Shown here one piece after another: positions 8,107 through 64,000 of a stretch of 64,000 nt of DNA (positions within the stretch are counted from its first letter, which is position 1; each line of letters opens with the position of its first letter). Source of the stretch: Antedon mediterranea. Lineage: Eukaryota; Echinodermata; Crinoidea; Comatulida; Antedonidae. The position numbers and the translations under genes are program-made. A model generated the notes under the pieces. That model was not told the origin of the DNA and did not search any database. It worked only from the letters and a program-made list of their open reading frames with translations. The stretch spans positions 28,401,001 through 28,465,000 of the forward strand of contig NC_092673.1 of assembly GCF_964355755.1 (NCBI RefSeq), written 5' to 3'.

Positions 8107-8234
8107 TGAGCTTATACAAACAACATGCAGCTGTAAATAAATATGAAATAAAATATTTGAAGACTTAATGTAATATAGGATGAGATCACACATATTTTAA
8201 CTGTACTGTGTTAGCATGAGTTCACACACGTATT

Positions 8235-13541: not shown

Positions 13542-14998
13542 TTTTTGTATTTTGCGTTTTTACAAAAACATTGTCACATCAGACCAGTTCAAAATCATTA
13601 AATCTCAATTTATTATTCTTGTCATCTTTCATGATAAAAGCTAACCTGCAATATTATATGAAATATTAATTATTATTAATAAATCATAAATGATGATTTA
13701 ATAAACTTAATTTGTTAGTGCATGCATATTATTGCAGTGACTAATTAATTGTATGACAAAACTACTTATACTACTATAGCTTCCTCAGATGTAGACCTAG
13801 GCCTAGCAGAAATAGGCATACATAAACGGGACAAACCTATCCCATCATGCTAGCTAGGCTAGAGAGGCCTAGCTAGTAGGGTAGGCCCAGTCGTGCATTA
13901 TGAAGTCTACTCCCGAGTCTACTCTCTCTCTCTCTTTCTCCTCCTACGTACCTTTAGACTAGGCTAGGCCTTACTAATACTATTACTAGCCGACTTAATT
14001 ACTTAGTACATGGAGTAAAGAATACTCCATGCTTACTCTTTAGTACAACTTGATATTATAATATAATGATTGATAGGAGGACGTCGTCTACTAACTAAAC
14101 TATAGAGAGTAGAGTATAGAAATTAGTATACTCTACTCTAGCTAGGCCTACTAAAGTACTAACCACACTAGCTAAGCTGCTCAGTCAGCCTGCAATATAA
14201 TGCTTCTTATTTGCTTATTACATATAAATAAACATTCATTTACTTGCTTTTTTCAATATTATTCATCAATTAAAGTTCGATCAACAATCTCAAAATCTCT
14301 GCTTCCTTCTTTGTTGCCACGTCTCGGTTGGTTGAATGACTGTTTCCCTAGTAACATCAAAACAATAACATAGACTAGACACTACGTCATACAGGATTTT
14401 AGATTGCGTCTTCATTACTTTTTTTTGGTACCTGGATAATGGCGGGAAAAGAATATGATCAGTACTTCAATAAAATATTACATTTTTAACATTTGTATAA
14501 TTTCAAATAAAATTAAATGAAAAACAATGGAAGTTTTGATTAATATCAAAATAGGTATTATTTTGTAATAAATAAATGGTACAGTCGAATAAAAATAAAG
14601 TAAAAAACAATATAATAATATGGAGCTCTGCCTTATGATATAACAGTTAACACAACATACCTTTTCTAAGAAATATTCTAACCAGTCAATTAACCATATT
14701 CAATTCATAAACATTCATTATTTGTTTTATATACTATATTTTTCTGATCAGTAATTTTACAAACAAGATCACAAAAAGAGAGTAAAAAGAATCTGGATAG
14801 CGCCATCTACGAGCACAAACTTATTCTTTAAAAAATATGGCAAACCCAGTCAAGCGCGAATTGTGAAATAAGTATGTTGTGAGCAGCAGACAGCAGGAAT
14901 TCCGCATAGGCTTCAGTATTCTACCATAATTTTCGGATACATTAATACCAAATGGATAATTTTAAAGGTGTAAGTAATTGCAATAAGTGAATGATAAT
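13542..14998. promoter_or_regulatory. Head-to-head intergenic region
   Basis: Separates the LRRIQ3 start (-) from the start of the unknown + gene by 1,457 bp, so the two genes are divergent. Its middle (13790-14170) is rich in CTAG/GGCCTA repeats and CTCT tracts. 14290-14400 is more GC-rich and carries the X-box-like site. Both 5' UTRs and promoters probably lie here; no transcript evidence. Confidence 0.5.
14342..14355. promoter_or_regulatory. RFX X-box-like site
   Basis: GTTTCCCTAGTAAC is two imperfectly symmetric half-sites (GTTTCC, AGTAAC) with a 2-bp spacer, close to the RFX consensus GTTRCC-N(1-3)-GGYAAC. RFX factors drive ciliary genes, which would suit LRRIQ3. It lies about 800 bp upstream of the LRRIQ3 ATG. 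Confidence 0.45.
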
Positions 14999-38900: not shown

Positions 38901-41900
38901 GTTGTCCTTAGAGTATTGGGTTCCTTTGAATTGGGACCTAATGCATACCCACATATTCAGTGATTATATACAGTAGGATAGAACCCCTATTGCAGGGACA
39001 CCTTCAGGACCCAACATACAGTATCCTCCTAAGTAGAGTTGTCCTCAGAGTATTGGGTTCCTTTGAATTGGGACCTAATGCATACCCACATATTCAGTGA
39101 TTATATACAGTAGGATAGAACCCCTATTGCGGGAACACCTTCAGGACCCAACATCACATTCACAGTATCCTCCTAAGTAGAGTTGTCCTCAGAGTATTGG
39201 GTTCCTTTGAATTGGGACCTAATGCATACCCACATATTCAGTGATTATAGATAGAACCCCTATTGCGGGAACACCTTCAGGACCCAACATCACATTCACA
39301 GTATCCTCCTGAGTAGAGTTGTCCTCAGAGTATTGGGTTCCTTTGAATTGGGACCTAATGCATACCCACATATTCAGTGATTATATACAGTAGGATAGAA
39401 CACCTATTGCGGGGACACCTTCAGGACCCAACATACAGTATCTTCCTAAGTAGAGTTGTCCTTAGAGTATTGGGTTCCTTTGAATTGGGACCTAATGCAT
39501 ATCCACATATTCAGTGATTATAGATAGAACACCTATTGCGGGGACACCTTCAGGACCCAACATACAGTATCCTCCTAAGTAGAGTTGTCCTTAGAGTATT
39601 GGGTTCCTTTGAATTGGGACCTAATGCATATCCACATATTCAGTGATTATAGATAGAACACCTATTGCGGTGACACCTTCAGGACCCAACATACAGTATC
39701 CTCCTAAGTAGAGTTGTCCTCAGAGTATTGGGTTCCTTTGAATTGGGACCTAATGCATACCCACATATTCAGTGATTATATACAGTAGGATAGAACACCT
39801 ATTGCGGGGACACCTTCAGGACCCAACATACAGTATCCTCCTAAGTAGAGTTGTCCTTAGAGTATTGGGTTCCTTTGAATTGGGACCTAATGCATATCCA
39901 CATATTCAGTGATTATAGATAGAACACCTATTGCGGGGACACCTTCAGGACCCAACATACAGTATCCTCCTGAGTAGAGTTGTCCTCAGAGTATTGGGTT
40001 CCTTTGAATTGGGGCCTGTAGTCTTAGTTTAATTGTCCTTTTAATAGTGGTGTCCCTATGTCATAGTCAATAGAAAGTTTGACTTGACTATGCTTAGTGT
40101 ATTTAAAGGGGTATCTTAATAGGTATCCCAATGAAGCGGATTTTCGTTACCGCGATTTTAACACGTTCGTGAAATTTCAAAAAGTGACGTGTCTTTGAAG
40201 TTAAAAATATACTATTTCTTATATACACATGTGAATAAAAATTATATGTCTGGAAAGATCTTGTTTAAGGGATTATTTTCATATATTTTTAATCTATGTT
40301 TATTAAATATTTTAATAGAAAACGCGAGTTAAAAATGAGGTACAAAAGCCGGCGAGCCGAAATCCGCGCGCTAAAAATAACTTTGGAAAACACCTACCCA
40401 TTTTCAAAACACGATCGCACGAGGTCCATAATAGGTGGTGGAGTAATTTTTGTTGCATGTTATCAGGCTTTAAATACTCTTTATTTTGATATGTAAATCG
40501 GTTATTATTATTATGTACATCCGCCTCAAATGTCAATTTTAACGATAAAAATTGAATTTTTTAGTCTTTCTCATTATCAAAATTTGGCTAATTTAGTATT
40601 GAATTGAAGCTAATTTATATTTCTGTTTGATAAACCACATCGTTTTATTTGACTTTGCGTGGACCTCGTGCGAAGAGACCAACAAGACCAACCACTGAAA
40701 AAAATAATCCCTACCAAAAATATCAGTGTTTACCATTTTCCTTACGGGGGGGATTCAGTTCTCCGCTTATTACTAAATTACCGTCGCCCAGACACTGTGC
40801 ATGGTATGCATGTATTAGCGCGTTAATTAATGATTGGATAACCCCTGCAGTGGACTGTTCCATTTTCTGAACTAGTCTTCGCCGCACACGAGGCATGTCG
40901 AAAAATGTCGCCTCTCATGGAATATTGGCTTCGAAACGTCAATTTTACCGATTTATTAAATTATTTAATAAGTGGAATATTTATAAATCTACTATATAAA
41001 GCAAGTACGTTAGGAAGAAATGTACCGAAGAAATTTAAGAAGCTTTGATTTTGCTATGCAGCGGCCGTAAGCCATTCTATGTAGGCGGCCGAAACGCGCT
41101 TTGTCCTGTGTTGCCGTTGTATGTCTACGCTGTTTCTAGGCCTAAATTTTATTCCGTATATTTCAATTCAAAGTGCAACTTTCGGTTAGAATAATCGAAA
41201 GGGAAATAAAATTAAACATGTTACAATTATACCATTGAGGTAATTACTTTGTTAAATAAAAAATTTCTTCCCGATATTTCTTAGTCTTAGGCAGAATTTA
41301 GCGTCAGGCTTTTATTTAGGCCTAGACCTTAGGGGCCTATATAACTTAACTTGTAGTAGGCGCGGCCGAGTCTACGTTCGGCCCGGCGCTCCAAATGGAA
41401 TCGAACACATAATAAGCACGGGCTTAATTCTTATTTTTGGCGGTTCGAAAATCAATTAAAATAATATATGATTATAAATATAACTTTAAATACTAGAATT
41501 AAAAAAAAAATGTATACTTACGAAAAATAATATTTAATGAAAAGAAACAATACCCACACAGTTTTTTAACGCAATATTTTTTTTTTTCACATTTTAACAT
41601 TTTTTAACCATACTTTATGTTGTATTTCAGAATTACCTACCTGTCAATATAAATAACCTTACTAAAATACATATTACATTTTATGCAATGCAAAAAAAAA
41701 GAAGTTAATTCACACATTGGTTCAAAAGTTATGAATCATTTAAAGACAGGAACTTTTTGGGCATTTTTGAGACATTGGGAAAATCACGCGTAAAAAGCCC
41801 TCGGACGAATTTTGGAGGGCGATATCTAAAAAAAAAAATGTCGGACACCCAAAAAAAAAAATTCTTGTACAACTCTGTTGTATCTATGGGTTTGGAAAAA

Positions 41901-43109: not shown

Positions 43110-46100
43110 GGACTTTAAATATGAGTAGAACTTGTTTGTACAAAAATTTGTTTTTCTGATTGTAGATTTTTATATCTTCACTTCTAATGCATGATAGGTT
43201 TTCTCATGGCATTTTGCTTCAACTCCTGTCAGAGCTCAGAATATAGTAATGTTCATTTTATATTTTTTATTGTTGGATATTTCATCATATTTTTGTCATA
43301 TTTTTCACTTGATTATTTTTTATATCATTGTACAGTGATGTGTTATATTCAGTCATCATAAATAATCTGATTGTCCACATGTTTGGTTAATACAAGATAC
43401 AAGAAACTTTATTTGTCTTCGTAGAAAATACGAAACAAAAAGAAATATCGGTTGTATGTCAGCAAATCTAATAATATTGATGAAAATAAGAATCTCACAA
43501 CAATGTTTATTAATATTCATTCATTCATCAGTGGAAAATTACTTCCATTTATTGTCATTTGCATAAAATAGAAATTATGTTTGCTTTGAGATTACAAAAA
43601 ACAATAGTAATTCATTTTTACAAAGATTACTTGGAAATTCCCAATGCGGCGTCCCTTTTTTATATTTAATTTCAGCAAACATATTTATTGCTATAAGAAA
43701 TGTTTGTCAACCACCATTTGTGTTCTCAGTTTTTGTATTACATATTTCAAAAATTTAATTTCACATTTGATGGCATTCTTCAAATACATACTTCACTTTT
43801 GAACTAATCATAATGTCTGTCAAATTAATTGATTAACATTTGTTGTTTATTTTTACTGTTGTAATCATTATCTGGCCACCCAATGAAACAAGTGGGTAGA
43901 GTGCTAACTATGCTATTTCACTTTGTGTTTCTTCAACAACAAGAAGTATACTATTTTTTTCAAATCTATTTAATGACACTCAGTTGATTATGTAAAATAA
44001 TGATACGTTATACTGTGACTGTCGCCGTGTTGTAGAGGGCACTTTTCCGGTTGATAACCATTTATAATACATACAGTTATTATAAAAATCAGTTAAGCAG
44101 TTAAAACTGCCTCAATTGAGGCAGTTTTAACTTGTTTGATTTTGCCCATGTAGCTCTTTGATTTATATTAATATTATTATATATTTATTGTTTTTGTCAG
44201 AATTGTGTACTTTTTTGTATCAGCGATAAACAAACTATTTTTATTTTTAAGATATCTCAAAGTAATTTGACATAGTACACTAAATTTATACTTTTTACAT
44301 CTTTAACAATTGATTTTATTAATCAATTTATTAATACATAAATTGAATTAATAAACTTTGAATATTAATTAATGTATATACCTCCATATATGTCGTATTT
44401 AAAAACTTCAAAATATGTATTTTTTAAAAATCATTGAATCATAATAATAAGTCAACAGCACATGTCAGAATGGCTGACTTTTTTTCCACTTGTCATGAGT
44501 CACTTTGTGTAAGTCTATGATCTTCTTCCTGTGCTAGGCGTCTTTGACTTTTAGTCTCAAGAGCTTTTCAATTGGTCAGTGAATGATAAGATGATAATAC
44601 AACGTACCTGTATATTTGGCCATGAAGCAATCTGTATTAATTGGAGCACTGAACATGAAATTCCATCTTATATTGTTTTCATCACCATGGTGATATATTC
44701 ATAAACTATTTAATTGGGTGAAAATTGTGTGAATTTATAATTGTATGTAAATTTGCAGACTGGACACTTTGGATAGGACATGTAGTGGCACTTACTGACA
44801 GATTTGTGTTTATTTGGTTTTTATTGTTAGATCCAACCACTGTTACCATCTTTTGTTTTTAGTCATTTGCCTTTGATAGCGTTTATATTTTTCAACTTTG
44901 TTCCTAAAGTTGGATTGCAGGACAAAGCTTATTGATCGAAGTTGTTTACTTGCTTTTAGTGATATAAAATTAATTTTCTTTTGCCAGTTTTGCTTCTCTG
45001 TGACGAAGATTGTTCCTGACAGAATATCATATGGAAACAATAATCCAAACATAAGATTTTGTAGATTCTGTAGAGTGTCGCTAAGTACGGCCTATTGGTT
45101 GTGACAAACAAGGTGATGTTTTGGAAAAGTTTCATCAATGTTTTCCCAAATCTGATTATATTAATAATAATAATTTATTTGGAAGCTACACTTTTGAAAC
45201 AGTGGCACACTTCTTGAATGAAGTTGCGTCCAGTATATTACAGTTTACTTGACTGAAAAGTTTTTAAAGATTCTGATTTATTTTGCAAAGTCATTTTTCT
45301 TTATTGCAACTTATTAAGAACATTTGTATGCAAAGTTTCTTATCTAGTATAAACATCAAGAATTAAAATACAGCTGTGATATTTATTTCTGTTTCTAGCC
45401 ATAAAGATACAAATTGATGTTCTCTTTGTTATTGAAATGATATTGCATTTAATTAAACTCATTTCTGAGTGTTTACAGATTGTTTCATTTGATTTTGAAT
45501 GAACTTATTGGACTCAAAGTCATGGTTGTGGATCTATCTCAAAACAACATGTGTACAGTAATTTATTCTGTTTAGTTGAACAAGTATTTTACTTTACGTT
45601 TAATCCTGATTTTAATTCATCATTTTTTTATATGTCTAAAAGGATTTGGTTTTTTTCTCAACAACATACCAAGGATTTGTAGTTTTGGATTGTGGGCTTA
45701 GAACATGAGAATGTGACTGACATTAATGTTCAAAACTGAATCAAGAAATCCTTGTTGTCTGCAGGAATTTTTACATAATTATTAGGATTATTATTTGAAG
45801 CTTTAGTTTTATGAGAGGAAAATCAACAACAGGTGGTACTAGTATGCTAATCAACAGGTGTTACTGTAGATCCAGCTAAATCAGCTAAAAATTGGTATTT
45901 AACAGAAGCACATTTGTTGGATAAAGTGACATTCTTTGGATAATTTTCAAATGACATTCATCATTATATAATCTACTGAACCCCACGTTCCTCCATCAAC
46001 TGCTTGCATTCAACGCTACAACTGTCAACTTGTGTCGTCTGCATTATCGATTCTCAGAAAATGCTTTCTTTGTCGTAAGGCTGCATTTCCCCCAGATTAA

Positions 46101-46440
46101 ATTCAACGCCTTATGATTGATAATCACGTTAAAGAAGACTAGCGTCTATTATTTTGTTCATACATCCTATTTCTATATTAAGGATTTTCACTGATTTATC
46201 TGATGTAAAGACTATGACTTAGCAACCACCGTGTATGCGTGATTCGTCGGTGCACCTACACTGAAAACGTAGTACTCAGTCATTTCCTACTGTACTTGGT
46301 TGAATTAAGCGGCAGTGCTCTTCTCCTAACTGGTATATGATGACATATTTCTATTAAGCATTTGTTTATTGTGAGTCGACCTTGGAATTTTTAATGGTTT
46401 TCGCATAATTAATGTTGTGATCTACATTGAAAACAGTTTT
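43110..46440. other. Unassigned intronic or intergenic sequence
   Basis: AT-rich. Apart from the palindrome at 44100-44131 and short AAT runs near 45165, I see no supported feature. Confidence 0.4.
44100..44131. other. Perfect 32-bp palindrome
   Basis: Two 16-base arms, GTTAAAACTGCCTCAA and its exact complement, with no spacer. No flanking transposon ends seen. Confidence 0.9.
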
Positions 46441-46444
46441 CAAG

Positions 46445-46490
46445 ATGAGGATTACTAAGAGAAAAGCACAAACATTGGGACGAAACTCAG
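46445..46490 (+). CDS. Possible alternative first exon
   Basis: CAAG-ATG context, then MRITKRKAQTLGRNS and a donor CAG|GTAGAA after 46 nt. It leaves in phase 1, the same as exons 1 and 4 of the upstream gene, so it could be an alternative start feeding the same downstream exon. No homology is recognised, and a 15-codon match to splice rules may arise by chance. Confidence 0.3.
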
Positions 46491-46499
46491 GTAGAATAC

Positions 46500-48240
46500 T
46501 CTTTTTAACTATTATATAGTTAGTAATCTGATAAAGATTATTTAAATTTAGTTGTTATTTTGTGCTTTCTTAAGTAGACCCTTGAATTGGAAAAATAATT
46601 GAAATTATAATGTATTCATTCATTTATTTTGTAATGTTATTGTTCAAAGAGTTGGTCTTAAACTTGTATTCTTAATCATGGAATATATCTTTATGTTTTT
46701 TTATCTGAGATGTTTTTGTTTTTGATGATAGCATCCACAATTTTCTTTCTGAAGTTTTGGCCGTATATTGATATATTGGTGACATCACAAATGCTTATTA
46801 AAATCTTGTGTTATCTTTATCTTCAAAATAGGCCAAAATTATAAATAGCCCGCTCTCTATTGCTCTTTTTATTTTGACAAGTATTTAGCTCAGTTTCTGA
46901 GCCCATTATATTTTTTCTGCAATAAAGTCTCCCTTTGTCTCCTAAATAGGGGTTGAAACGTATAATTAACCCCTTTTTTCACATTTTAGTGACCCCTTTG
47001 TAGTGATGTCCCCTGAATAGAGGTTGGCCTCAATGCTGAAACATATAGGAGTTATTTGTTTCATATTAAAGTGTCCCCTTAATAGAAGTGCCACTAAATA
47101 TTTATTTTATTCTTTTATTATTATCCAAGTGGTTCTGTTATATTGGATTCTATCTCCTCAACCACCCATCCAGTTTGTTGAGTATTATTTATTAATATTA
47201 ATGTAGAAGTCACGTGATAGGAAACAGTCTATATTGTTGTTTGTACAAATGTAATTGTTTTCCATGTTTTTGGAAATATGAAACAAAATGTTTTTCATTT
47301 AAAGTATGTTAATAGGTGTTTAATCACATTCTGCATTCTATAATGACATTAAGTCTACATTCCAACTTTCTCTTTACTTAATTATTAAAAAGAACTTTCC
47401 TTTTGTCTTTGCCTAAGTTGCAAAAACAACATATAATATGCCAGTGTCTCATAATATACAGACCCATGTTCATTATTTGATTTGACGAGTTTAATAATAA
47501 CATAATATATTTATTTTATCTTCCTCCTTATGTGCTTTCATATTTTCTTTCCGTCTTATATCACCCGAATTCCACTATTTTCCATCTTGTCTCGTTCATT
47601 TTTTCAACAAATTATTGCTATTTGTACCTTGTTTCCGTAATAAAACTTATTGTTAACATACGGTTTTCTTACATTGCATCCCTTTTTTGGAAGGAAAACT
47701 GTTAATTGTTGTCGATTCATCTTGATTCTTTAAATACATATCCATTTTTATAAAACCTATATTAGTGTATAATTATATATTGTTATTAATTATGGCAATT
47801 ATTTCTTTTTGATTATCTCTCACCGATAACATCATGCTATGTTGATCCATCCAGATAAATTCATCTGTTCTTCATTTTCTAATAGACACCAGCTCCTCTC
47901 CGCTTTCAACCACCAAGTTCAATACATTTTTTATTTTATATGCTGATATCAAATTAATCAGTTTGAAAATATTGAAACCTTGGATTGTGAACTACTTAAA
48001 GCTTTTTGTCAGGAAGTTAGAATTAATTAATGTCCTGACTTGATGAAATATGATCCGTATTTGATTGCAATCCCCGCCCCTTCTGTCTCTACATCTCCTC
48101 CAATCCAGACATCTGACTCATGCTAATTTGTTTTGTAAGGAAAGCTGCATGCTGCCCTCTAGAGTTGGTATATTTGAAAACTTTTATTATTTTATAGTGT
48201 ATAAACAATAAGACAGTAGAAAATCATAATTTTATTAAAT
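46500..48240. other. Unassigned sequence before the satellite
   Basis: AT-rich; nothing that I can name. Confidence 0.4.
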
Positions 48241-49109
48241 TCAAGTTATTCCTCCTGATAACTTCCTTTTCCTCATAACTTCTTCATAAAGATATTCCTC
48301 CTTATGTTCACTTTCCTCCTCCCTGTAGTAAGTTCCATTTCTGTTACGCCATATCTTCACTGTCTTTTTCGGTTCCTCTTCATAATAAGTTATTCCTCCT
48401 GATAACTTCCTTTTCCTCATAACTTCTTCATAAAGATGTTCCTCCTTATGTTCTCTTTCCTCCTCCCTGTAGTAAGTTCCATTTCTCTTATGCCATATCT
48501 TCACTGTCTTTTTCGGTTCCTCTTCATAATAAGTTATTCCTCCTGATAACTTCCTTTTCCTCATAAAGATGTTCCTCCTTATGTTCACTTTCCTCCTCCC
48601 TGTAGTAAGTTCCATTTCTCTTATGCCATATCTTCACTGTCTTTTTCGGTTCCTCTTCATAATAAGTTATTCCTCCTGATAACTTCCTTTTCCTCATAAC
48701 TTCCTCATAAAGATGTTCCTCCTTATGTTCACTTTCCTCCTCCCTGTAGTAAGTTCCATTTCTCTTATATGCCATATCTTCACTGTCTTTTTCGGTTCCT
48801 CTTCATAATAAGTTATTCCTCCTGATAACTTCCTTTTCCTCATAACTTCCTCATAAAGATGTTCCTTCTTATGTTCACTTTCCTCCTCCCTGTAGTAAGT
48901 TCCATTTCTCTTATGCCATATCTTTACTGTCTTTTTCGGTTCCTCTTCATAATGAGTTATTCCTCCTGATAACTTCCTTTTCCTCATAACTTCCTCATAA
49001 AGATGTTCCTCCTTATATTACAAGTTCTTTTTCCTCTTTCCTCCTCTCTGTAGTAAGTTCCACTTCTTCTATGCCATATCTTCACTGTCTTTTTCGGTTC
49101 CTCTTCATA

Positions 49110-52100
49110 ATAAGTTATTCCTCCTGATAACTTCCTTTTCCTCATAACTTCTTCATAAAGATGTTCCTCCTTATGTTCACTTTCCTCCTCCCTGTAGTAA
49201 GTTCCATTTCTGTTACGCCATATCTTCACTGTCTTTTTCGGTTCCTCTTCATAATAAGTTATTCCTCCTGATAACTTCCTTTTCCTCATAACTTCTTCAT
49301 AAAGATGTTCCTCCTTATGTTCTCTTTCCTCCTCCCTGTAGTAAGTTCCATTTCTCTTATGCCATATCTTCACTGTCTTTTTCGGTTCCTCTTCATAATA
49401 AGTTATTCCTCCTGATAACTTCCTTTTCCTCATAAAGATGTTCCTCCTTATGTTCACTTTCCTCCTCCCTGTAGTAAGTTCCATTTCTCTTATGCCATAT
49501 CTTCACTGTCTTTTTCGGTTCCTCTTCATAATAAGTTATTCCTCCTGATAACTTCCTTTTCCTCATAACTTCCTCATAAAGATGTTCCTCCTTATGTTCA
49601 CTTTCCTCCTCCCTGTAGTAAGTTCCATTTCTCTTATATGCCATATCTTCACTGTCTTTTTCGGTTCCTCTTCATAATAAGTTATTCCTCCTGATAACTT
49701 CCTTTTCCTCATAACTTCCTCATAAAGATGTTCCTTCTTATGTTCACTTTCCTCCTCCCTGTAGTAAGTTCCATTTCTCTTATGCCATATCTTTACTGTC
49801 TTTTTCGGTTCCTCTTCATAATGAGTTATTCCTCCTGATAACTTCCTTTTCCTAATAACTTCCTCATAAAGATGTTCCTCCTTATATTACAAGTTCTTTT
49901 TCCTCTTTCCTCCTCTCTGTAGTAAGTTCCACTTCTTCTATGCCATATCTTCACTGTCTTTTTCGGTTCCTCTTCATAATAAGTTATTCCTCCTGATAAC
50001 TTCCTTTTCCTCATAACTTCTTCATAAAGATGTTCCTCCTTATGTTCACTTTCCTCCTCCCTGTAGTAAGTTCCATTTCTCTTACGCCATATCTCCACTG
50101 TCTTTTTCGGTTCCTCTTCATAATAAGTTATTCCTCCTGATAACTTCCTTTTCCTCATAAAGATGTTCCTCCTTATGTTCACTTTCCTCCTCCCTGTTCA
50201 GGGAAAAATTTCATAAAAAAAATTTGTTTAGCAATATTGCTAATCAAACTGATTTTTAAGTCGAGAAACATAGTTTTGTATTGTATTTTTTGCTACACAA
50301 TTTTTAAAATGTGTAGCAATAAGGTTTTTTTGTATAGCTTTTTGCTATGCTACACTGGCGAAACTGTTCCCTGCTGTAGTAAGTTCCATTTCTCTTCTGC
50401 CATATCTTCACTGTCTTTTTCGGTTCCTCTTCATAATAAGTTATTCCTCCTGATAACTTCCTTTTCCTCATAACTTCCTCATAAAGATGTTCCTCCTTAT
50501 GTTCACTTTCCTCCTCCCTGTAGTAAGTTCCATTTCTCTTATATGCCATATCTTCACTGTCTTTTTCGGTTCCTCTTCATAATAAGTTAATCCTCCTGAT
50601 AACTTCCTTTTCCTCATAACTTCCTCATAAAGATGTTCCTCCTTATGTTCACTTTCCTCCTCCCTGTAGTAAGTTCCATTTCTCTTACGCCATATTTTCA
50701 CTGTCTTTTTCAGTTCCTCTTCATAATAAGTTATTCCTCCTGATAACTTCCTTTTCCTCATAACTTCTTCATAAAGATGTTCCTCCTTATGTTCACTTTC
50801 CTCCTCCCTGTAGTAAGTTCCATTTCTGTTATGCCATATCTTTACTGTCTTTTTCGGTTCCTCTTCATAATAAGTTTTTCCTCCTGATAACTTCCTTTTC
50901 CTCATAACTTCCTCATAAAGATGTTCCTCCTTATATTACAAGTTCTTTTTCCTCTTTCCTCCTCCCTGTAGTAAGTTCCACTTCTTTTATGCCATATCTT
51001 CACTGTCTTTTTTGGTTCCTCTTCATAATAAGTTTTTCCTCCTGATAACTTCCTTTTCCTCATAACTTCCTCATAAAGATGTTCCTCCTTATATTACAAG
51101 TTCTTTTTCCTCTTTCCTCCTCCCTGTAGTAAGTTCCACTTCTTTTATGCCATATCTTCACTGTCTTTTTCGGTTCCTCTTCATAATAAGTTATTCCTCC
51201 TGATAACTTCCTTTTCCTCATAACTTCTTCATAAAGATGTTCCTCCTTATGTTCACTTTCCTCCTCCCTGTAGTAAGTTCCATTTCTCTTACGCCATATC
51301 TTCACTGTCTTTTTTGGTTCCTCTTCATAATAAGTTATTCCTCCTGATAACTTCCTTTTCCTCATAACTTCTTCATAAAGATGTTCCTCCTTATGTTCAC
51401 TTTCCTTCTCCCTGTAGTAAGTTCCATTTCTCTTATGCCATATATTCACTGTCTTTTTCGGTTCCTCTTCATAATAAGTTATTCCTCCTGATAACTTCCT
51501 TTTCCTCATAACTTCCTCATAAAGATGTTCCTCCTTATGTTCACTTTCCTCCTCCCTGTAGTAAGTTCCATTTCTCTTACGCCATATCTTCACTGTCTTT
51601 TTCGGTTCCTCTTCATAATAAGTTATTCCTCCTGATAACTTCCTCATAAAGATGTTCCTCCTTATATTCCAAGTTCTTTTTCCTCTTTCCTCCTCCCTGT
51701 AGTAAGTTCCACTTCTTCTATGCCATATCTTCACTGTCTTTTTCGGTTCCTCTTCATAATAAGTTATTCCTCCTGATAACTTCCTTTTCCTCATAACTTC
51801 TTCATAAAGATGTTCCTCCTTATGTTCTTGTTCCTCCTCCCTGTAGTAAGTTCCATTTCTCTTATGCCATATCTTCACTGTCTTTTTCGGTTCCTCTTCA
51901 TAATAAGTTATTCCTCCTGATAACTTCCTTTTCCTCATAACTTCTTCATAAAGATGTTCCTCCTTATGTTCACTTTCCTCCTCCCTGTAGTAAGTTCCAT
52001 TTCTTTTATGCCATATCTTCACTGTTTTTTTCGGTTCCTCTTCATAATAAGTTATTCCTCCTGATAACTTCCTTTTCCTCATAACTTCTTCATAAAGATG

Positions 52101-52800
52101 TTCCTTCTTATGTTCACTTTCCTCCTCCCTGTAGTAAGTTCCATTTCTCTTATGCCATATCTTCACTATTTTTTCGGTTCCTCTTCATAATAAGTTATTC
52201 CTCCTGATAACTTCCTTTTCCTCATAACTTCTTCATAAAGAAGTTTTTCCTTATGTTCACTTTCCTCCTCCCTGTAGTAAATTCCATTTCTGTTAGGCCA
52301 TATCTTCACTGTCTTTTTCGGTTCCTCTTCATAATAAGTTATTCCTCCTGATAACTTCCTTTTCCTCATAACTTCTTCATAAAGATGTTCCTCCTTATGT
52401 TCACTTTCCTCCTCCCTGTAGTAAGTTCCATTTCTGTTACGCCATATCTTTACTGTCTTTTTTGGTTCCTCTTCATAATAAGTTATTCCTCCTGATAACT
52501 TCCTTTTCCTCATAAAGATGTTCCTCCTTATGTTCGCTTTCCTCCTCCTCCCTGTAATAGTAAGTTCCCTTTCTCTTATGCCATATCTTCACTGTCTTTT
52601 TCGGTTCCTCTTCATAATAAGTTATTCCTCCTGATAACTTCCTTTTCCTCATAACTTCCTCATAAAGATGTTCCTCCTTATGTTCACTTTCCTCCTCCCT
52701 GTAGTAAGTTCCATTTCTCTTATATGCCATATCTTCACTGTCTTTTTCGGTTCCTCTTCATAATAAGTTATTCCTCCTGATAACTTCCTTTTCCTCATAA
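49110..52800. repeat. Higher-order repeat block A
   Basis: Unit variants in this block recur in the same order at 53340-57150. The offset is 4,229 bp up to about 51,600 and 4,370 bp after, because block B has one extra ~141-bp unit. Both blocks share the 175-bp insertion. Boundaries are approximate. Confidence 0.85.
50199..50373. mobile_element. 175-bp hAT-like MITE inside satellite, copy A
   Basis: Begins CAGGGAAAAATTTC and ends GAAACTGTTCCCTG, imperfect 14-bp inverted ends of hAT type (CAGGG...CCCTG). It interrupts a satellite unit within CTCCCTG|TAGTAAG, with CTGTT/CTGTA on its two sides as a probable imperfect target duplication. Internal hairpins: TAGCAATATTGCTA and GCTACACA...TGTGTAGC. 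Confidence 0.8.
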
Positions 52801-53339
52801 CTTCCTCATAAAGATGTTCCTTCTTATGTTCACTTTCCTCCTCCCTGTAGTAAGTTCCATTTCTCTTATGCCATATCTTTACTGTCTTTTTCGGTTCCTC
52901 TTCATAATAAGTTATTCCTCCTGATAACTTCCTTTTCCTCATAACTTTCTCATAAAGATGTTCCTCCTTATGTTCACTTTCCTCCTCCCTGTAGTAAGTT
53001 CCATTTATCTTATGCCATATCTTCACTGTCTTTTTCGGTTCCTCTTCATAATAAGTTATTCCTCCTGATAACTTCCTTTTCCTCATAACTTCCTCATAAA
53101 GATGTTCCTCCTTATGTTCACTTTCCTCCTCCCTGTAGTAAGTTCCATTTCTCTTTTGCCATATCTTCACTGTCTTTTTCGGTTCCTCTTCATAATAAGT
53201 TATTCCTCCTGATAACTTCCTCTTCCTCATAACTTCCTCATAAAGATGTTCCTCCTTATGTTCACTTTCCTCCTCCCTGTAGTAAGTTCCATTTCTCTTA
53301 CGCCATATCTTCACTGTCTTTTTCGGTTCCTCTTCATAA

Positions 53340-56300
53340 TAAGTTATTCCTCCTGATAACTTCCTTTTGCTCATAACTTCTTCATAAAGATGTTCCTCCT
53401 TATGTTCACTTTCCTCCTCCCTGTAGTAAGTTCCATTTCTGTTACGCCATATCTTTACTGTCTTTTTCGGTTCCTCTTCATAATAAGTTATTCCTCCTGA
53501 TAACTTCCTTTTCCTCATAACTTCTTCATAAAGATGTTCCTCCTTATGTTCTCTTTCCTCCTCCCTGTAGTAAGTTCCATTTCTCTTATGCCATATCTTC
53601 ACTGTCTTTTTCGGTTCCTCTTCATAATAAGTTATTCCTCCTGATAACTTCCTTTTCCTCATAAAGATGTTCCTCCTTATGTTCACTTTCCTCCTCCCTG
53701 TAGTAAGTTCCATTTCTCTTATGCCATATCTTCACTGTCTTTTTCGGTTCCTCTTCATAATAAGTTATTCCTCCTGATAACTTCCTTTTCCTCATAACTT
53801 CCTCATAAAGATGTTCCTCCTTATGTTCACTTTCCTCCTCCCTGTAGTAAGTTCCATTTCTCTTATATGCCATATCTTCACTGTCTTTTTCGGTTCCTCT
53901 TCATAATAAGTTATTCCTCCTGATAACTTCCTTTTCCTCATAACTTCCTCATAAAGATGTTCCTTCTTATGTTCACTTTCCTCCTCCCTGTAGTAAGTTC
54001 CATTTCTCTTATGCCATATCTTTACTGTCTTTTTCGGTTCCTCTTCATAATGAGTTATTCCTCCTGATAACTTCCTTTTCCTCATAACTTCCTCATAAAG
54101 ATGTTCCTCCTTATATTACAAGTTCTTTTTCCTCTTTCCTCCTCTCTGTAGTAAGTTCCACTTCTTCTATGCCATATCTTCACTGTCTTTTTCGGTTCCT
54201 CTTCATAATAAGTTATTCCTCCTGATAACTTCCTTTTCCTCATAACTTCTTCATAAAGATGTTCCTCCTTATGTTCACTTTCCTCCTCCCTGTAGTAAGT
54301 TCCATTTCTCTTACGCCATATCTCCACTGTCTTTTTCGGTTCCTCTTCATAATAAGTTATTCCTCCTGATAACTTCCTTTTCCTCATAAAGATGTTCCTC
54401 CTTATGTTCACTTTCCTCCTCCCTGTTCAGGGAAAAATTTCATAAAAAAAATTTGTTTAGCAATATTGCTAATCAAACTGATTTTTAAGTCGAGAAACAT
54501 AGTTTTGTATTGTATTTTTTGCTACACAATTTTTAAAATGTGTAGCAATAAGGTTTTTTTGTATAGCTTTTTGCTATGCTACACTGGCGAAACTGTTCCC
54601 TGCTGTAGTAAGTTCCATTTCTCTTCTGCCATATCTTCACTGTCTTTTTCGGTTCCTCTTCATAATAAGTTATTCCTCCTGATAACTTCCTTTTCCTCAT
54701 AACTTCCTCATAAAGATGTTCCTCCTTATGTTCACTTTCCTCCTCCCTGTAGTAAGTTCCATTTCTCTTATATGCCATATCTTCACTGTCTTTTTCGGTT
54801 CCTCTTCATAATAAGTTAATCCTCCTGATAACTTCCTTTTCCTCATAACTTCCTCATAAAGATGTTCCTCCTTATGTTCACTTTCCTCCTCCCTGTAGTA
54901 AGTTCCATTTCTCTTACGCCATATTTTCACTGTCTTTTTCAGTTCCTCTTCATAATAAGTTATTCCTCCTGATAACTTCCTTTTCCTCATAACTTCTTCA
55001 TAAAGATGTTCCTCCTTATGTTCACTTTCCTCCTCCCTGTAGTAAGTTCCATTTCTGTTATGCCATATCTTTACTGTCTTTTTCGGTTCCTCTTCATAAT
55101 AAGTTTTTCCTCCTGATAACTTCCTTTTCCTCATAACTTCCTCATAAAGATGTTCCTCCTTATATTACAAGTTCTTTTTCCTCTTTCCTCCTCCCTGTAG
55201 TAAGTTCCACTTCTTTTATGCCATATCTTCACTGTCTTTTTTGGTTCCTCTTCATAATAAGTTTTTCCTCCTGATAACTTCCTTTTCCTCATAACTTCCT
55301 CATAAAGATGTTCCTCCTTATATTACAAGTTCTTTTTCCTCTTTCCTCCTCCCTGTAGTAAGTTCCACTTCTTTTATGCCATATCTTCACTTTCTTTTTC
55401 GGTTCCTCTTCATAATAAGTTATTCCTCCTGATAACTTCCTTTTCCTCATAACTTCTTCATAAAGATGTTCCTCCTTATGTTCACTTTCCTCCTCCCTGT
55501 AGTAAGTTCCATTTCTCTTACGCCATATCTTCACTGTCTTTTTTGGTTCCTCTTCATAATAAGTTATTCCTCCTGATAACTTCCTTTTCCTCATAACTTC
55601 TTCATAAAGATGTTCCTCCTTATGTTCACTTTCCTTCTCCCTGTAGTAAGTTCCATTTCTCTTATGCCATATATTCACTGTCTTTTTCGGTTCCTCTTCA
55701 TAATAAGTTATTCCTCCTGATAACTTCCTTTTCCTCATAACTTCCTCATAAAGATGTTCCTCCTTATGTTCACTTTCCTCCTCCCTGTAGTAAGTTCCAT
55801 TTCTCTTACGCCATATCTTCACTGTCTTTTTCGGTTCCTCTTCATAATAAGTTATTCCTCCTGATAACTTCCTCATAAAGATATTCCTCCTTATATTACA
55901 AGTTCTTTTTCCTCTTTCCTCCTCCCTGTAGTAAGTTCCACTTCTTCTATGCCATATCTTTACTGTTTTTTTCGGTTCCTCTTCATAATAAGTTATTCCT
56001 CCTGATAACTTCCTCATAAAGATGTTCCTCCTTATATTCCAAGTTCTTTTTCCTCTTTCCTCCTCCCTGTAGTAAGTTCCACTTCTTCTATGCCATATCT
56101 TCACTGTCTTTTTCGGTTCCTCTTCATAATAAGTTATTCCTCCTGATAACTTCCTTTTCCTCATAACTTCTTCATAAAGATGTTCCTCCTTATGTTCTCG
56201 TTCCTCCTCCCTGTAGTAAGTTCCATTTCTCTTATGCCATATCTTCACTGTCTTTTTCGGTTCCTCTTCATAATAAGTTATTCCTCCTGATAACTTCCTT

Positions 56301-57150
56301 TTCCTCATAACTTCTTCATAAAGATGTTCCTCCTTATGTTCACTTTCCTCCTCCCTGTAGTAAGTTCCATTTCTCTTATGCCATATCTTCACTGTTTTTT
56401 TCGGTTCCTCTTCATAATAAGTTATTCCTCCTGATAACTTCCTTTTCCTCATAACTTCTTCATAAAGATGTTCCTTCTTATGTTCACTTTCCTCCTCCCT
56501 GTAGTAAGTTCCATTTCTCTTATGCCATATCTTCACTATTTTTTCGGTTCCTCTTCATAATAAGTTATTCCTCCTGATAACTTCCTTTTCCTCATAACTT
56601 CTTCATAAAGAAGTTTTTCCTTATGTTCACTTTCCTCCTCCCTGTAGTAAATTCCATTTCTGTTAGGCCATATCTTCACTGTCTTTTTCGGTTCCTCTTC
56701 ATAATAAGTTATTCCTCCTGATAACTTCCTTTTCCTCATAACTTCTTCATAAAGATGTTCCTCCTTATGTTCACTTTCCTCCTCCCTGTAGTAAGTTCCA
56801 TTTCTGTTACGCCATATCTTTACTGTCTTTTTTAGTTCCTCTTCATAATAAGTTATTCCTCCTGATAACTTCCTTTTCCTCATAAAGATGTTCCTCCTTA
56901 TGTTCGCTTTCCTCCTCCTCCCTGTAATAGTAAGTTCCCTTTCTCTTATGCCATATCTTCACTGTCTTTTTCGGTTCCTCTTCATAATAAGTTATTCCTC
57001 CTGATAACTTCCTTTTCCTCATAACTTCCTCATAAAGATGTTCCTCCTTATGTTCACTTTCCTCCTCCCTGTAGTAAGTTCCATTTCTCTTATATGCCAT
57101 ATCTTCACTGTCTTTTTCGGTTCCTCTTCATAATAAGTTATTCCTCCTGA
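53340..57150. repeat. Higher-order repeat block B
   Basis: Near-identical partner of block A. It differs by one added unit (around 55,880-56,030) and scattered substitutions (for example GTCTTTTTTAG for GTCTTTTTTGG near 56,830). Beyond it two units present after block A are missing. Boundaries are approximate. Confidence 0.85.
54428..54602. mobile_element. 175-bp hAT-like MITE inside satellite, copy B
   Basis: Same sequence and same position within the satellite unit as 50199-50373. It therefore arose by block duplication and not by a second insertion. Confidence 0.8.
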
Positions 57151-60100
57151 TAACTTCCTTTTCCTCATAACTTCCTCATAAAGATGTTCCTCCTTATGTT
57201 CACTTTCCTCCTCCCTGTAGTAAGTTCCATTTCTCTTTTGCCATATCTTCACTGTCTTTTTCGGTTCCTCTTCATAATAAGTTATTCCTCCTGATAACTT
57301 CCTCTTCCTCATAACTTCCTCATAAAGATGTTCCTCCTTATGTTCACTTTCCTCCTCCCTGTAGTAAGTTCCATTTCTCTTACGCCATATCTTCACTGTC
57401 TTTTTCGGTTCCTCTTCATAATAAGTTATTCCTCCTGATAACTTCCTTTTGCTCATAACTTCTTCATAAAGATGTTCCTCCTTATGTTCACTTTCCTCCT
57501 CCCTGTAGTAAGTTCCATTTCTGTTACGCCATATCTTTACTGTCTTTTTCGGTTCCTCTTCATAATAAGTTATTCCTCTTGATAACTTCCTTTTCCTCAT
57601 AAAGATGTTCCTCCTTATGTTCACTTTCCTCCTCCCTGTAGTAAGTTCCATTTCTCTTATGCCATGTCTTCACTGTCTTTTTCGGTTCCTCTTCATAATA
57701 AGTTATTCCTCCTGATAACTTCCTTTTCCTCATAACTTCCTCAAGATGTTCCTTATGTTCACTTTCCTCCTCCCTGTAGTAAGTTCCATTTCTCTTATGC
57801 CATATCTTCACTGTCTTTTTCGGTTCCTTTTCATAATAAGTTATTCCTCCTGATAACTTCCTTTTCCTCATAACTTCTTCATAAAGATGTTCCTCCTTAT
57901 GTTCACTTTCCTCCTCCCTGTAGTAAGTTCCATTTCTCTTATATGCCATATCTTCACTGTCTTTTTCGGTTCCTCTTCATAATAAGTTATTCCTCCTGAT
58001 AACTTCCTTTTCCTCATAACTTCCTCATAAAGATGTTCCTTCTTATGTTCACTTTCCTCCTCCCTATAGAAAGTTCCATTTCTCTTATGCCATATCTTCA
58101 CTGTCTTTTTCGGTTCCTTTTCATAATAAGTTATTCCTCCTGATAACTTCCTTTTCCTCATAACTTCTTCATAAAGATGTTCCTCCTTATGTTCACTTTC
58201 CTCCTCCCTGTAGTAAGTTCCATTTCTCTTATATGCCATATCTTCACTGTCTTTTTCGGTTCCTATTCATAATAAGTTATTCCTCCTGATAACTTCTTTT
58301 TCCTCATAAACTTCCTCATAAAGATGTTCCTCCTTATATTACAAGTTCTTTTTCCTCTTTCCTCCTCCCTGTAGTAAGTTCCACTTCTTCTATGCCATAT
58401 CTTCACTGTCTTTTTCGGTTCCTCATAATAAGTTATTCCTCCTGATAACTTCCTTTTCCTTATAACTTATTCATAAAGATGTTCCTCCTTATGTTCACTT
58501 TCCTCCTCCCTGTAGTAAGTTCCATTTCTCTTATTCCATATCTTCACTGTCTTTTTCGGTTCCTCTTCATAATAAGTTATTCCTCCTGATAACTTCCTTT
58601 TCCTCATAACTTCCTCATAAAGATGTTCCTCCTTATATTACAAGTTCTTTTTCCTCTTTCATCCTCCCTGTAGTAAGTTCCACTTCTTCTATGCCATATC
58701 TTTACTGTCTTTTTCGGTTCCTCTTCATAATAAGTTATTCCTCCTGATAACTTCCTCATAAAGATGTTCCTCCTTATATTACAAGTTCTTTTTCCTCTTT
58801 CCTCCTCCCTGTAGTAAGTTCCATTTCTCTTATGCCATATCTTCACTGTCTTTTTCGGTTCCTCTTCATAATAAGTTATTCCTCCTGATAACTTCCTTTT
58901 CCTCATAACTTCTTCCTCCTTATGTTCACTTTCCTCCTCCCTGTAGTAAGTTCCATTTCTGTTACGCCATATCTTCACTGTCTTTTTCGGTTCCTCTTCA
59001 TAATAAGTTATTCCTCCTGATAACTTCCTTTTCCTCATAAAGATGTTCCTCCTTATGTTCACTTTCCTCCTCCCTGTAGTAAGTTCCATTTCTCTTATGC
59101 CATATCTTCACTGTCTTTTTCGGTTCCTCTTCATAATAAGTTATTCCTCCTGATAACTTCCTTTTCCTCATAACTTCCTCATAAAGATGTTCCTCCTTAT
59201 GTTCACTTTCCTCCTCCCTGTAGTAAGTTCCATTTCTCTTATATGCCATATCTTCACTGTCTTTTTCGGTTCCTCTTCATAATAAGTTATTCCTCCTGAT
59301 AACTTCCTTTTCCTCATAACTTCCTCATAAAGATGTTCCTTCTTATGTTCACTTTCCTCCTCCCTGTAGTAAGTTCCATTTCTCTTATGCCATATCTTTA
59401 CTGTCTTTTTCGGTTCCTCTTCATAATAAGTTATTCCTCCTGATAACTTCCTTTTCCTCATAACTTCCTCATAAAGATGTTCCTCCTTATGTTCACTTTC
59501 CTCCTCCCTGTAGTAAGTTCCATTTCTCTTATGCCATATCTTCACTGTCTTTTTCGGTTCCTCTTCATAATAAGTTATTCCTCCTCATAACTTCCTTTTC
59601 CTCATAACTTCCTCATAAAGATGTTCCTCCTTATGTTCACTTTCCTCCTCCCTGTAGTAAGTTCCATTTCTCTTACGCCATATCGGTTCCTCTTCATAAT
59701 AAGTTATTCCTCCTGATAACTTCCTTTTCCTCATAACTTCTTCATAGAGATGTTCCTCCTTATGTTCACTTTCCTCCTCCCTGTAGTAAGTTCCATTTCT
59801 GTTACGCCATATCTTTACTGTCTTTTTCGGTTCCTCTTCATAATAAGTTATTCCTCCTGATAACTTCCTTTTCCTCATAACTTCTTCATAAAGATGTTCC
59901 TCCTTATGTTCTCGTTCCTCCTCCCTGTAGTAAGTTCCATTTCTCTTATGCCATATCTTCACTGTCTTTTTCGGTTCCTCTTCATAATAAGTTATTCCTC
60001 CTGATAACTTCCTTTTCCTCACAACTTCCTCAAGATGTTCCTTCTCATGTTCACTTTCCTCCTCCCTGTAGTAAGTTCCATTTCTCTTATGCCATATCTT

Positions 60101-61879
60101 CACTGTCTTTTTCGGTTCCTCTTCATAATAAGTTATTCCTCCTGATAACTTCCTTTTCCTCATAACTTCTTCATAAAGATGTTCCTCCTTATGTTCACTT
60201 TCCTCCTCCCTGTAGTAAGTTCCATTTCTCTTATGCCATATCTTCACTGTCTTTTTCGGTTCCTCTTCATAATAAGTTATTCCTCCTGATAACTTCCTTT
60301 TCCTCATAACTTCTTCATAAAGATGTTCCTCCTTATGTTCACTTTCCTCCTCCCTGTAGTAAGTTCCATTTCTCTTACGCCATATCTTCACTGTCTTTTT
60401 CGGTTCCTCTTCATAATAAGTTATTCCTCCTGATAACTTCCTCATAAAGATGTTCCTCCTTATATTACAAGTTCTTTTTCCTCTTTCCTCCTCCCTGTAG
60501 TAAGTTCCATTTGTCTTACGCCATATCTTCACTGTCTTTTTCGGTTCCTCTTCATAATTTGTTATTCCTCCTGATAACTTCCTCATAAAGATGTTCCTCC
60601 TTATATTACAAGTTCTTTTTCCTCTTTCCTCCTCCCTGTAGTAAGTTCCACTTCTTCTATGCCATATCTTTACTGTCTTTTTCGGTTCCTCTTCATAATA
60701 AGTTATTCCTCCTGATAACTTCCTCATAAAGATGTTCCTCCTTATATTACAAGTCTTTTTCCCTTTTCCTCCTCCCTGTAGTAAGTTCCACTTCTTCTAT
60801 GCCATATCTTCACTGTCTTTTTCGGTTCCTCTTCATAATAAGTTATTCCTCCTGATAACTTCCTTTTCCTCATAACTTCTTCATAAAGATGTTCCTCCTT
60901 ATGTTCTCGTTCCTCCTCCCTGTAGTAAGTTCCATTTCTCTTATGCCATATCTTCACTGTCTTTTTCCGTTCCTCTTCAAAATAAGGTATTCCTCCTGAT
61001 AACTTCCTTTTCCTCATAACTTCTTCATAAAGATGTTCCTCCTTATGTTCACTTTCCTCCTCCCTGTAGTAAGTTCCATTTCTCTTATGCCATATCTTTA
61101 CTGTCTTTTTCGGTTCCTCTTCATAATAAGTTATTCCTCCTGATAACTTCCTTTTCCTCATAACTTCTTTATAAAGATGTTCCTTCTTATGTTCACTTTC
61201 CTCCTCCTTGTAGTAAGTTCCATTTCTCTTATGCCATATCTTCACTGTTTTTTTCGGTTCCTCTTCATAATAAGTTATTCCTCCTGATAACTTCCTTTTC
61301 CTCATAACTTCTTCATAAAGATGTTCCTCCTTATGTTCACTTTCCTCCTCCCTGTAGTAAGTTCCATTTCTGTTACGCCATATCTTCACTGTCTTTTTCG
61401 GTTCCTCTTCATAATAAGTTATTCCTCCTGATAACTTCCTTTTCCTCATAACTTCTTCATAAAGATGTTCCTCCTTATGTTCTCTTTCCTCCTCCCTGTA
61501 GTAAGTTCCATTTCTCTTATGCCATATCTTCACTGTCTTTTTCGGTTCCTCTTCATAATAAGTTATTCCTCCTGATAACTTCCTTTTCCTCATAAAGATG
61601 TTCCTCCTTATGTTCACTTTCCTCCTCCCTGTAGTAAGTTCCATTTCTCTTATGCCATATCTTCACTGTCTTTTTCGATTCCTCTTCATAATAAGTTATT
61701 CCTCCTGATAACTTCCTTTTCCTCATAACTTCCTCATAAAGATGTTCCTCCTTATGTTCACTTTCCTCCTCCCTGTAGTAAGTTCCATTTCTCTTATGCC
61801 ATATCTTCACTGTCTTTTTCGGTTCCTCTTCATAATAAGTTATTCCTCCTGATAACTTCCATTTCTCTTATGCCATATC

Positions 61880-62055
61880 TTGACATTGACAACTGAAAAG
61901 GGTATTTGTAGAAGAAAAAAACAATGAAAGATTTAGTTAGTATTATATGAAGCTGGCATAAATAGACAAACACAATGAGTTTCAGAGAAGCTTCTATGTT
62001 TAACTACATAATCTTCAGGTTGATTACGTCCAGTTCTTTTACTGGCATGAGCACA
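61880..62055. other. Satellite distal flank
   Basis: Unique sequence directly after the last, truncated satellite unit. On - it carries a pyrimidine tract ending TACCCTTTTCAG, which looks like a splice acceptor, but none of the three frames stays open into the array. Confidence 0.4.
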
Positions 62056-62059
62056 CTAC

Positions 62060-62244
62060 TAAAGCTTGGTTCCCACTAGAACGTAACGCAAGGACGTAAA
62101 CGCAACGCAAGCGTTTTACCCAATGACAAGCGAAGTTATAGACCGTTAGTAATCACAAGCGAATAAGCCATCGCTTGTGATTGGTCAATTCACTTGCATT
62201 GCGTTACGTCCTTGTGTAGCGTCGCTAGTGGGAACCACGCTTTA
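62060..62244. mobile_element. MITE family 3, intact copy
   Basis: Left TAAAGCTTGGTTCCCACTAG and right CTAGTGGGAACCACGCTTTA are inverted repeats with one mismatch over 20 bp. ACGCAAGGACGTAA/TTACGTCCTTGTG and AATCACAAGCGA/TCGCTTGTGATT extend the fold inward, so nearly the whole 185-bp element can form one hairpin. TA borders. Confidence 0.8.
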
Positions 62245-62249
62245 GACTG

Positions 62250-63560
62250 CAATTGATGGTATTGCTTTTCTTCGCGTACACTATCTATCTATTGTGGATT
62301 CTTCCACCAGTGTAATTGTATAACGCCATTGACATTCTTAACTTTCAAGCCTTTACTACCAAAATCCCCAAAGCTCTAGCTGATAAACAGATAACATATT
62401 CTAAGTATTCTTTACTTCTTCTGCTGAAACATCAATCAATTGTTTTAGTGACAAAATTTAGCCCAGATGCAAACATTAAAACTATATAAGAAGCCATATT
62501 TTATTTGGGTTCCTTAAACTGAACTTGATCAGAAATCTTCTTCATGATACTTGAATTGTTTAGTGCTTCTTTCTAAACTGACATATTTATTCATCTAACT
62601 GACTCAAAAACCTTCACCTTTACTTTGTATCCAACTGACATTCTTCGTAAAATTTTACTGTAACTTTTCCTAGTATGAATTCTAAACTACATCATCAATT
62701 TTGGTGATATCCTGCAATCGGAAAATTTGAATAATTTAATGTTTGTTAACAAATTTGTGTTATGTTAGGGAAGTACCATTGCATACTCATATTTAAAAAT
62801 AAGGTTAAAATTAAATCATGGATGTAGAAAGCCCAGAGTACCTAATCACATTCTCAACTTTTTAGTTTACTAGCCTACTGTAATCCATCCTTATGGCGGT
62901 AATTAATAAAGTGTTATCCCAAGAGTAAAGTATGTGCTGTGATGACTAAAATCACTTGAGGAGAACGAACTCAATGCCATCTCACGCTTGTACAGAGATT
63001 GTTTTTGTTTCTTGTCTTAGTCCTATGTTGGCATTTACCCAACATCTTTATACAATCCCTGGCATACTGGATGCTAGATTGCCCGGCACTTGTCATGAAT
63101 TGTGTAGGCCCCCAGTGCCCTATCAATAGATACTGTGGATGCCTGTGTCTGTCATTTAATGTAGGCTGCTCATCAAAATATACTGGGTGTGCAAGATTAC
63201 CCATGTTCATTCATTGTCACTTTCCAGTCATTTAATGTTTTGCATAGCCTCCCAGGTGTGTCTAGGTCATAGACGGAGTATCTATTACCCCATTGTCTTC
63301 ATTTAGTCAAATAGTGTGTCATAGTAGGCCTACAGTAACAAAACAGTCATAATAACATTACAAATTCACATTTTAAGTACATAGTTTCAAAATTAGAAGA
63401 AAACTCAAATTACAATTTGTATAAAACCACTTCTTGAATTAATTTTTTGTTCACCTATATCCCAGGGTGGGCTTATACCTGAAATGTTGACGATTTTCAA
63501 ATCCCCTGATCTTGGCAACATAAAACCCTTTGAAAATTGTCTTTTAATCAGCGCAAAATC
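62250..63560. other. Unassigned sequence
   Basis: No exon-like segment recognised. Open frames near 62971-63235 overlap on both strands and lack splice or homology support. Confidence 0.4.
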
Positions 63561-63573
63561 ATTTACTTGTCAT

Positions 63574-63717
63574 TAAAGCTCTTCTGCGTACACAAAAAAG
63601 TGTGATGTACCCATATATGGTAGTGATATGCCCAAAGATAGTAGTGATACGACATCATCATTTATGGGCACATCACATTTTTTTGCCACAAAGTTTGATA
63701 GTGTGGACAGAGCTTTA
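63574..63717. mobile_element. MITE family 1 copy
   Basis: TTAAAGCTCTTCTGCGTACA at left (internal deletion) and AGTTTGATAGTGTGGACAGA plus GCTTTA at right. The core has AGTAGTGATACGACATCATC. Confidence 0.8.
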
Positions 63718-64000
63718 AAATAAAAGAAAAGCACTTGATGTATCAAATAATTCTTTGTCCTTGCAACAATTGGCATTTTTCCATGACACAGGCCCTACTA
63801 TTTCCCTGCCACCTTTCCTTAATCCATGCCTACAATTTAGCTTAGAAAATGTTTGATAACAATATTTTGTTGATGCTTTTTGTTTTCTTTTTCACAAGAC
63901 CTTTAATTATCAAAAAACAAAATTAATGTGTACTTCCTTCTTTTGCAAATTTGTTTTTATTCCAAAAATGATAAAATATTCGCATTATTTTATCAAGTGT

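Follow-up and report, generated by a model that had tools for sequence, protein, structure and literature searches.

Satellite DNAs located outside large heterochromatin blocks are built of mutually similar tandem units, can have a transposon-like element among these units, and mostly occur as dispersed short arrays (PMC10048060). A 144-bp tandem repeat that we analysed in the crinoid Antedon mediterranea resembles them in its units and in carrying such an element, whereas its approximately 92 units form one array at one place in a 354-Mb assembly (18 contigs). This array lies in a stretch of 64,000 nt (C4:28401001-28465000) that is hereafter called the window, and all positions below are counted from its first nucleotide. 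In alpha-satellite-type DNA, several basic units make up larger repeats that are duplicated as blocks (PMC4431391), and the same layout is present here. This likeness is one of layout, and in contrast to the alpha-satellite type there is no evidence of a centromere and only three copies of an 869-bp larger repeat were compared. The Balbiani ring genes of Chironomus, like our array, have a long tandem-repeat core that is readable as protein. However, the four long genes of this group span about 40 kb and include four introns and non-repetitive parts (PMC4192438), whereas the array has no coding end that we could find and no one frame that runs through it. Finally, satellites with open reading frames (ORFs) within their monomers have been described (reports cited in PMC6947457), and here the likeness is one of description only.

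The array is very probably an ordinary single-locus satellite whose minus-strand frame is open through base composition and chance. Tandem Repeats Finder (TRF) reports 94.2 head-to-tail copies with a period of 144, 87% matches and 5% indels, and the consensus has no stops in one minus-strand frame, which confirms the description of a minus-strand-open satellite of ~13.6 kb given in an earlier note on this DNA.

48243-61865, minus strand: 144-bp satellite array (TRF, unit cutting, composition)

Cutting the minus strand at a fixed anchor yielded 92 full units (48265-61858), with two pairs (u32/u33 and u59/u60) re-cut at a 17-bp sub-repeat. The unit lengths after re-cutting were 144 bp (n=50), 146 bp (10), 158 bp (8), 141 bp (7) and 133 bp (6), with eight other lengths accounting for 11 units. 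As first cut, 60 of the 92 units were distinct, and the 46 units left at 144 bp by this first cutting have a mean pairwise difference of 3.2%. On the minus strand, the consensus is rich in purines and has little T and C (A 44%, G 28%, T 19%, C 8%). A long head-to-tail array of like units is what defines a satellite, as are homogenised units accompanied by block duplications and higher-order repeats, and the locus has all of these. The array adds one single-locus example to satellite DNA, which is an already known kind. It departs from the classical satellite, which is abundant and heterochromatic, in occupying one locus within the limits of our searches, and this classical definition has been called too narrow (PMC10048060).

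The substitutions that distinguish the units are blind to amino acids. All 92 units were aligned to the consensus and distinct substitutions were listed by position and base, such that a change copied to many units counts as one; the expected counts were obtained by placing the same kinds of change at random. The 65 distinct substitutions comprise 13 synonymous, 49 non-synonymous and 3 nonsense changes, compared with 13.8, 45.6 and 5.6 expected (P = 0.69 for at least 13 synonymous). Codon positions 1, 2 and 3 were changed 21, 20 and 24 times (expected 23.2, 19.9 and 21.9). An alignment of the units had been proposed in the earlier note as a check on coding, and the outcome, which is equal substitution over the codon positions overall, speaks against it. 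The 50 units of exactly 144 bp, taken alone, gave 10 synonymous, 31 non-synonymous and 2 nonsense changes of 43 (expected 9.6, 30.0 and 3.3). The first cutting was similar (12, 49 and 3 of 64), and the two other frames behaved alike.

The substitutions are therefore neutral with respect to the frame, as in a satellite whose reading frame is not under selection, and the purifying selection between units that would mark a repeat-protein gene is not seen. As a positive control, in a polyubiquitin gene of the same genome (L006, 8 units) 24 of 26 changes were synonymous and 2 non-synonymous where 8.4 and 16.2 were expected, and two overlapping cuts of a second polyubiquitin gene (L007 and L008) gave 18 synonymous and 1 non-synonymous of 19 each. 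Ubiquitin represents extreme constraint, and a fairer guide to the power of the test is the interval of the omega-like ratio, which is 1.14 (0.64-2.20) for the array. This interval is compatible with mild coding constraint on the units; under a ratio of 0.5, a synonymous count this low would have P 0.004.

The frame structure of the array is what gives it the look of a gene. The three minus-strand frames of the consensus contain 0, 3 and 5 stops, and the plus-strand frames contain 2, 5 and 1. There are 17 stop-to-stop frames of at least 120 codons that overlap 44000-64000, all on the minus strand and all in the array. The longest of the minus-strand runs reaches 421 codons, so that the long open stretches previously claimed are real, with 421 replacing the figure of 415 codons given for their upper limit. 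Runs of this length could belong to a living gene of Balbiani-ring-like layout that encodes a charged repeat protein rich in Tyr, and the array would be its large exon. A CAG that resembles an acceptor, at the 5′ edge of the array, and a TGA with AATAAA at its 3′ edge would fit such a gene.

61859-61902, minus strand: 5′ edge of the array, CCCTTTTCAG motif, then partial unit (unit cutting, edge reading)
48220-48264, minus strand: 3′ edge of the array, partial unit with TGA at the border, followed by AATAAA in AT-rich DNA

The substitution classes, the use of frames and the 5′ edge led us to reject a live gene, which we regard as extremely improbable. The CCCTTTTCAG motif is the acceptor-like CAG and by its sequence is a candidate splice acceptor, but in the three frames that start there a stop is reached after 7, 16 and 20 codons, such that every one of them closes within 21 codons. 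The acceptor-like motif and AATAAA are the only signs of coding flanks. After re-cutting, the length is a multiple of three in 61 of the 92 units, and 59 of these also have no stop in the frame. Unit starts are distributed over the three frames as 46/26/20, and therefore no single frame runs through the array, as one continuous frame would through the repeats of a protein gene. Furthermore, units u51 and u79 carry inserts with stops. An AlphaFold2 model of four units built from a single sequence shows strand-strand-helix stretches in each unit, but at a mean predicted local distance difference test score (pLDDT) of 35.9, with none of the 192 residues at 50 or above, and this is no confident fold. 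We infer that the array is not translated.

Frame-breaking variants are shared among the 92 units, and these shared frameshifts run into stops. As aligned, a 2-bp insertion is present in 10 units, an 11-bp deletion in 10 and a 14-bp insertion in 16, and the first two, which had been noticed before, are thus real and do break the frame. Eight of the ten units with the 2-bp insertion have a unit with the 11-bp deletion as their next neighbour, and the two lengths sum to a multiple of three. We considered whether the deletion repairs the frame and rejected this idea, as all ten insertion units meet a stop at the unit end. The pair recurs in repeated blocks and is therefore taken as linkage. Seven of the 16 units with the 14-bp insertion also lack 17 bp. 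Six of these are 141 bp long and regain the frame, as was claimed for length variants such as 141 bp, whereas the seventh is 140 bp long and does not. The combination of a 14-bp insertion and a 17-bp deletion in these six 141-bp units is read as slippage of a 17-bp sub-repeat, of which one run is listed here.

53183-53239, minus strand: run of the 17-bp purine-rich sub-repeat (TRF; indels)

Such 17-bp sub-repeats are scattered through the unit, and the loss of one such stretch is among the recurrent indels of the array. Periodicity within the unit as a whole is not significant (best lag 34, z 3.01 versus a threshold of 3.24 from single-base shuffles).

Stops are rare on the minus strand because this strand is poor in T. 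The unit length also happens to be 48 codons, so that tandem copies of a single open unit stay in register and give a long frame. These two properties would explain the open minus-strand frame. The tandem array itself is far beyond chance, whereas the openness of its frame is only slightly out of the ordinary. When the unit was shuffled 5000 times with its dinucleotides preserved, 1.6% of the shuffles had a given frame open, 4.2% had at least one open minus-strand frame and 38.9% had at least one open frame among the six. Three other tandem arrays of the window were checked for openness, and two of them are largely open. The array at 16811-17128 lies inside a 146-codon frame, and one of its minus-strand frames reads through 106 codons with 0 stops, while the array at 1044-1566 has open runs of up to 104 codons. 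In the third, which has a 137-bp unit (38837-40017, 8.8 copies), each of the six frames is interrupted by 18-24 stops, and the longest open run extends over 53 codons. The 144-bp satellite illustrates how closely a T-poor tandem repeat whose unit length is a multiple of three can mimic a gene, with internal ATG-started frames of up to 387 codons. Before a repeat ORF is trusted, the distinct substitutions between its units should be counted by codon class.

Some observations weigh against a satellite that is open by chance. The chance of the open frame is low if only the given frame or any minus frame is counted (P 0.016-0.042, as above). Nonsense changes are slightly rarer than expected among the 65 substitutions (3 versus 5.6, P 0.14). 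Among the 37 changes found in at least two units, third codon positions are somewhat over-represented (18 versus 12.7 expected, P 0.04) and nonsense changes are absent (2.0 expected, P 0.10), with 10 synonymous changes where 8.7 were expected (P 0.36). The 28 singleton changes include 3 synonymous (5.2 expected), 3 nonsense (3.6) and 6 at third positions (9.2). Shared changes thus lean faintly towards constraint and singletons away from it; several subsets of changes were examined, and each of these counter-points is weak. Multiples of three make up 8 of 15 distinct indels (P 0.09), or 7 of 14 without a transposon-like insert (P 0.15), as listed by hand with three alignments of the 14-bp insertion merged. 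This excess faintly favours coding, and runs such as GAGGAGGAA would be expected to slip in threes regardless of coding. Lastly, the acceptor-like motif and AATAAA flank the array, although motifs of the CCCTTTTCAG and AATAAA types are short and presumably not rare in AT-rich DNA.

The open frame, the unit of exactly 48 codons, and the hints from indels and from third-position changes could all be explained if the unit is a former exon of a repeat-protein gene, or part of one, that was amplified to a satellite and has since been evolving without coding constraint. This origin appears quite unlikely. An open frame in any of the six is expected in 39% of shuffled units, and our searches of the rest of the genome yielded no related exon or single-copy unit. 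Likewise, the array peptide has no Pfam match at cut-off and no match in the PDB, and none of ten minus-strand ORFs upstream of the array has a Pfam match. We give a slimmer chance still to the proposal that the array is either a former repeat-protein exon turned satellite or a satellite that is being read, by way of internal ATGs, as a young repeat protein. If this were true, the transition between satellite and gene would be captured in the array at a point without selection on the frame. Of the explanations offered in the earlier note, a repeat-protein gene in decay and a satellite derived from a coding exon thus find little support, whereas a satellite open by chance agrees with the substitution classes and with frame use.

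Searches for relatives of the unit likewise point to an ordinary satellite at a single locus. All 84 reported protein matches in the 354-Mb assembly lie inside the array, and no second locus was found by a search that more diverged copies could escape. All 78 genome matches to a 39-base pattern, allowing up to 3 mismatches, also lie inside it. Save for its fair length with no second locus found in an assembly of such size, the array is biologically ordinary. The best Pfam match of the array peptide is TBP, with an E value of 7e-4 that is below cut-off. When nine shuffled peptides of the same make-up were each repeated three times, their best E values ranged from 7.9e-10 to 8e-3. Seven of the nine scored better than the real peptide, and therefore we regard Pfam matches on such tandem peptides, including the resemblance to TBP, as noise. 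A single copy of the unit has no Pfam match. NCBIfam gave 8 matches up to E 1, each below cut-off (best 1.2e-5), and the PDB gave none at E up to 1. The search of a plasmid collection with one 360-residue ORF (tblastn) found nothing, and the literature, searched without the species name, yielded no earlier report of this satellite.

The internal structure of the array records its recent history. Two blocks of units are near-identical, a six-unit higher-order repeat is present, and a transposon-like insert occurs in both blocks.

53363-57156, minus strand: block A (25 units, u34-u58) of a recent duplication within the array (block comparison)
49134-52786, minus strand: block B (24 units, u63-u86) of this duplication (block comparison)
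48265-50002, minus strand: six-unit higher-order repeat of 869 bp, two copies (unit cutting, block comparison)
54428-54602, minus strand: DNA-transposon-like insert of ~175 bp (sequence); second copy at ~50199-50373 in block B, 4229 bp lower

Blocks A and B can be paired over 24 units, with u42 of block A omitted from the pairing as it has no partner, and the 3653 bases of this alignment contain 7 substitutions and no gaps (99.8% identity). Two of the seven differences are synonymous, four are non-synonymous and one involves a stop codon, each judged in the frame of its own unit. A duplication of this identity could also be an assembly error. The 869-bp repeat has unit lengths of 158-144-146-133-144-144. 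Its copy u87-u92 has 2 differences from u81-u86 and 3 in 869 from a third copy, u53-u58 (53363-54231).

The insert has the inverted ends CAGGGAA...TTCCCTG and an imperfect target duplication of 5 bases. These ends are reminiscent of hAT-type elements. The two copies are 100% identical over the 181 bases searched (54420-54600 versus 50191-50371). The family to which they belong is dispersed, with 38 further places outside the array at 95-99% identity among the 40 scored of 836 first-look candidates. The likely order of events is that the array came first, then the insertion and then the block duplication. Unequal exchange, together with slippage between short sub-repeats rich in purines, may have expanded the array and may keep it homogeneous. 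The same processes could have generated the six-unit higher-order repeat and the recent duplication of ~3.7 kb that copied the insert.

A satellite of this kind might also be transcribed as a non-coding satellite RNA or play a local role in chromatin, which is compatible with an ordinary satellite and would add a function to it. The strand asymmetry of the array is strong, with a GC skew of -0.44 to -0.56 in 1-kb windows, and the unit length of 144 bp is near that of the nucleosome core. Both features would suit such roles, but Rfam has no match in the window at gathering thresholds. We consider a function of this type unlikely.

The satellite appears to sit in DNA without a recognised gene nearby. 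Its left flank (47600-48260) has a single match in the genome, which is itself. The ten upstream minus-strand ORFs mentioned above, of which four lie in the window and six in the 10 kb to its right (L005), remained without a match in Pfam at E up to 0.01, and they are a sample rather than a gene prediction. Ten other ORFs were scanned with Pfam and two of them matched, both more than 34 kb from the array. The array may lie in an intron, as the scans for genes covered a minor part of the window between the array and the matched ORFs. One of the matched regions, 6311-6994, is an exon of mitochondrial ribosomal protein S2 (Pfam Ribosomal_S2, E 2.1e-46; PDB MRPS2, E 4.7e-84). A leucine-rich-repeat match to Pfam at 13158-13559 is below cut-off. 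The open frame of 142 codons at 43-471 has no Pfam match at E up to 0.001, and its middle part may resemble a flotillin.

Several other repeats were observed around the array. Immediately to its right, 62059-62245 is a dispersed high-copy repeat that is partly self-complementary and has 21-nt inverted ends (39 scored of 1166 first-look candidates). Two protein-like stretches in L005 each occur twice in opposite orientation, at 5584-5781 (minus) and 9585-9848 (plus) and at 7149-7394 (minus) and 7987-8424 (plus), and are possibly the remains of transposons. Nine TRF arrays of period 21 with CATATCACTACCATATTTGGG-like units recur through the window in either orientation, with their likeness judged by eye on unaligned sequences.

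367-413, 1044-1566, 21267-21339, 24632-24672, 25139-25184, 28688-28737, 30430-30475, 35931-35980 and 63602-63649: period-21 arrays (TRF)

A further tandem repeat at 34915-35192 consists of 2.6 copies of a 106-bp unit with 97% matches.

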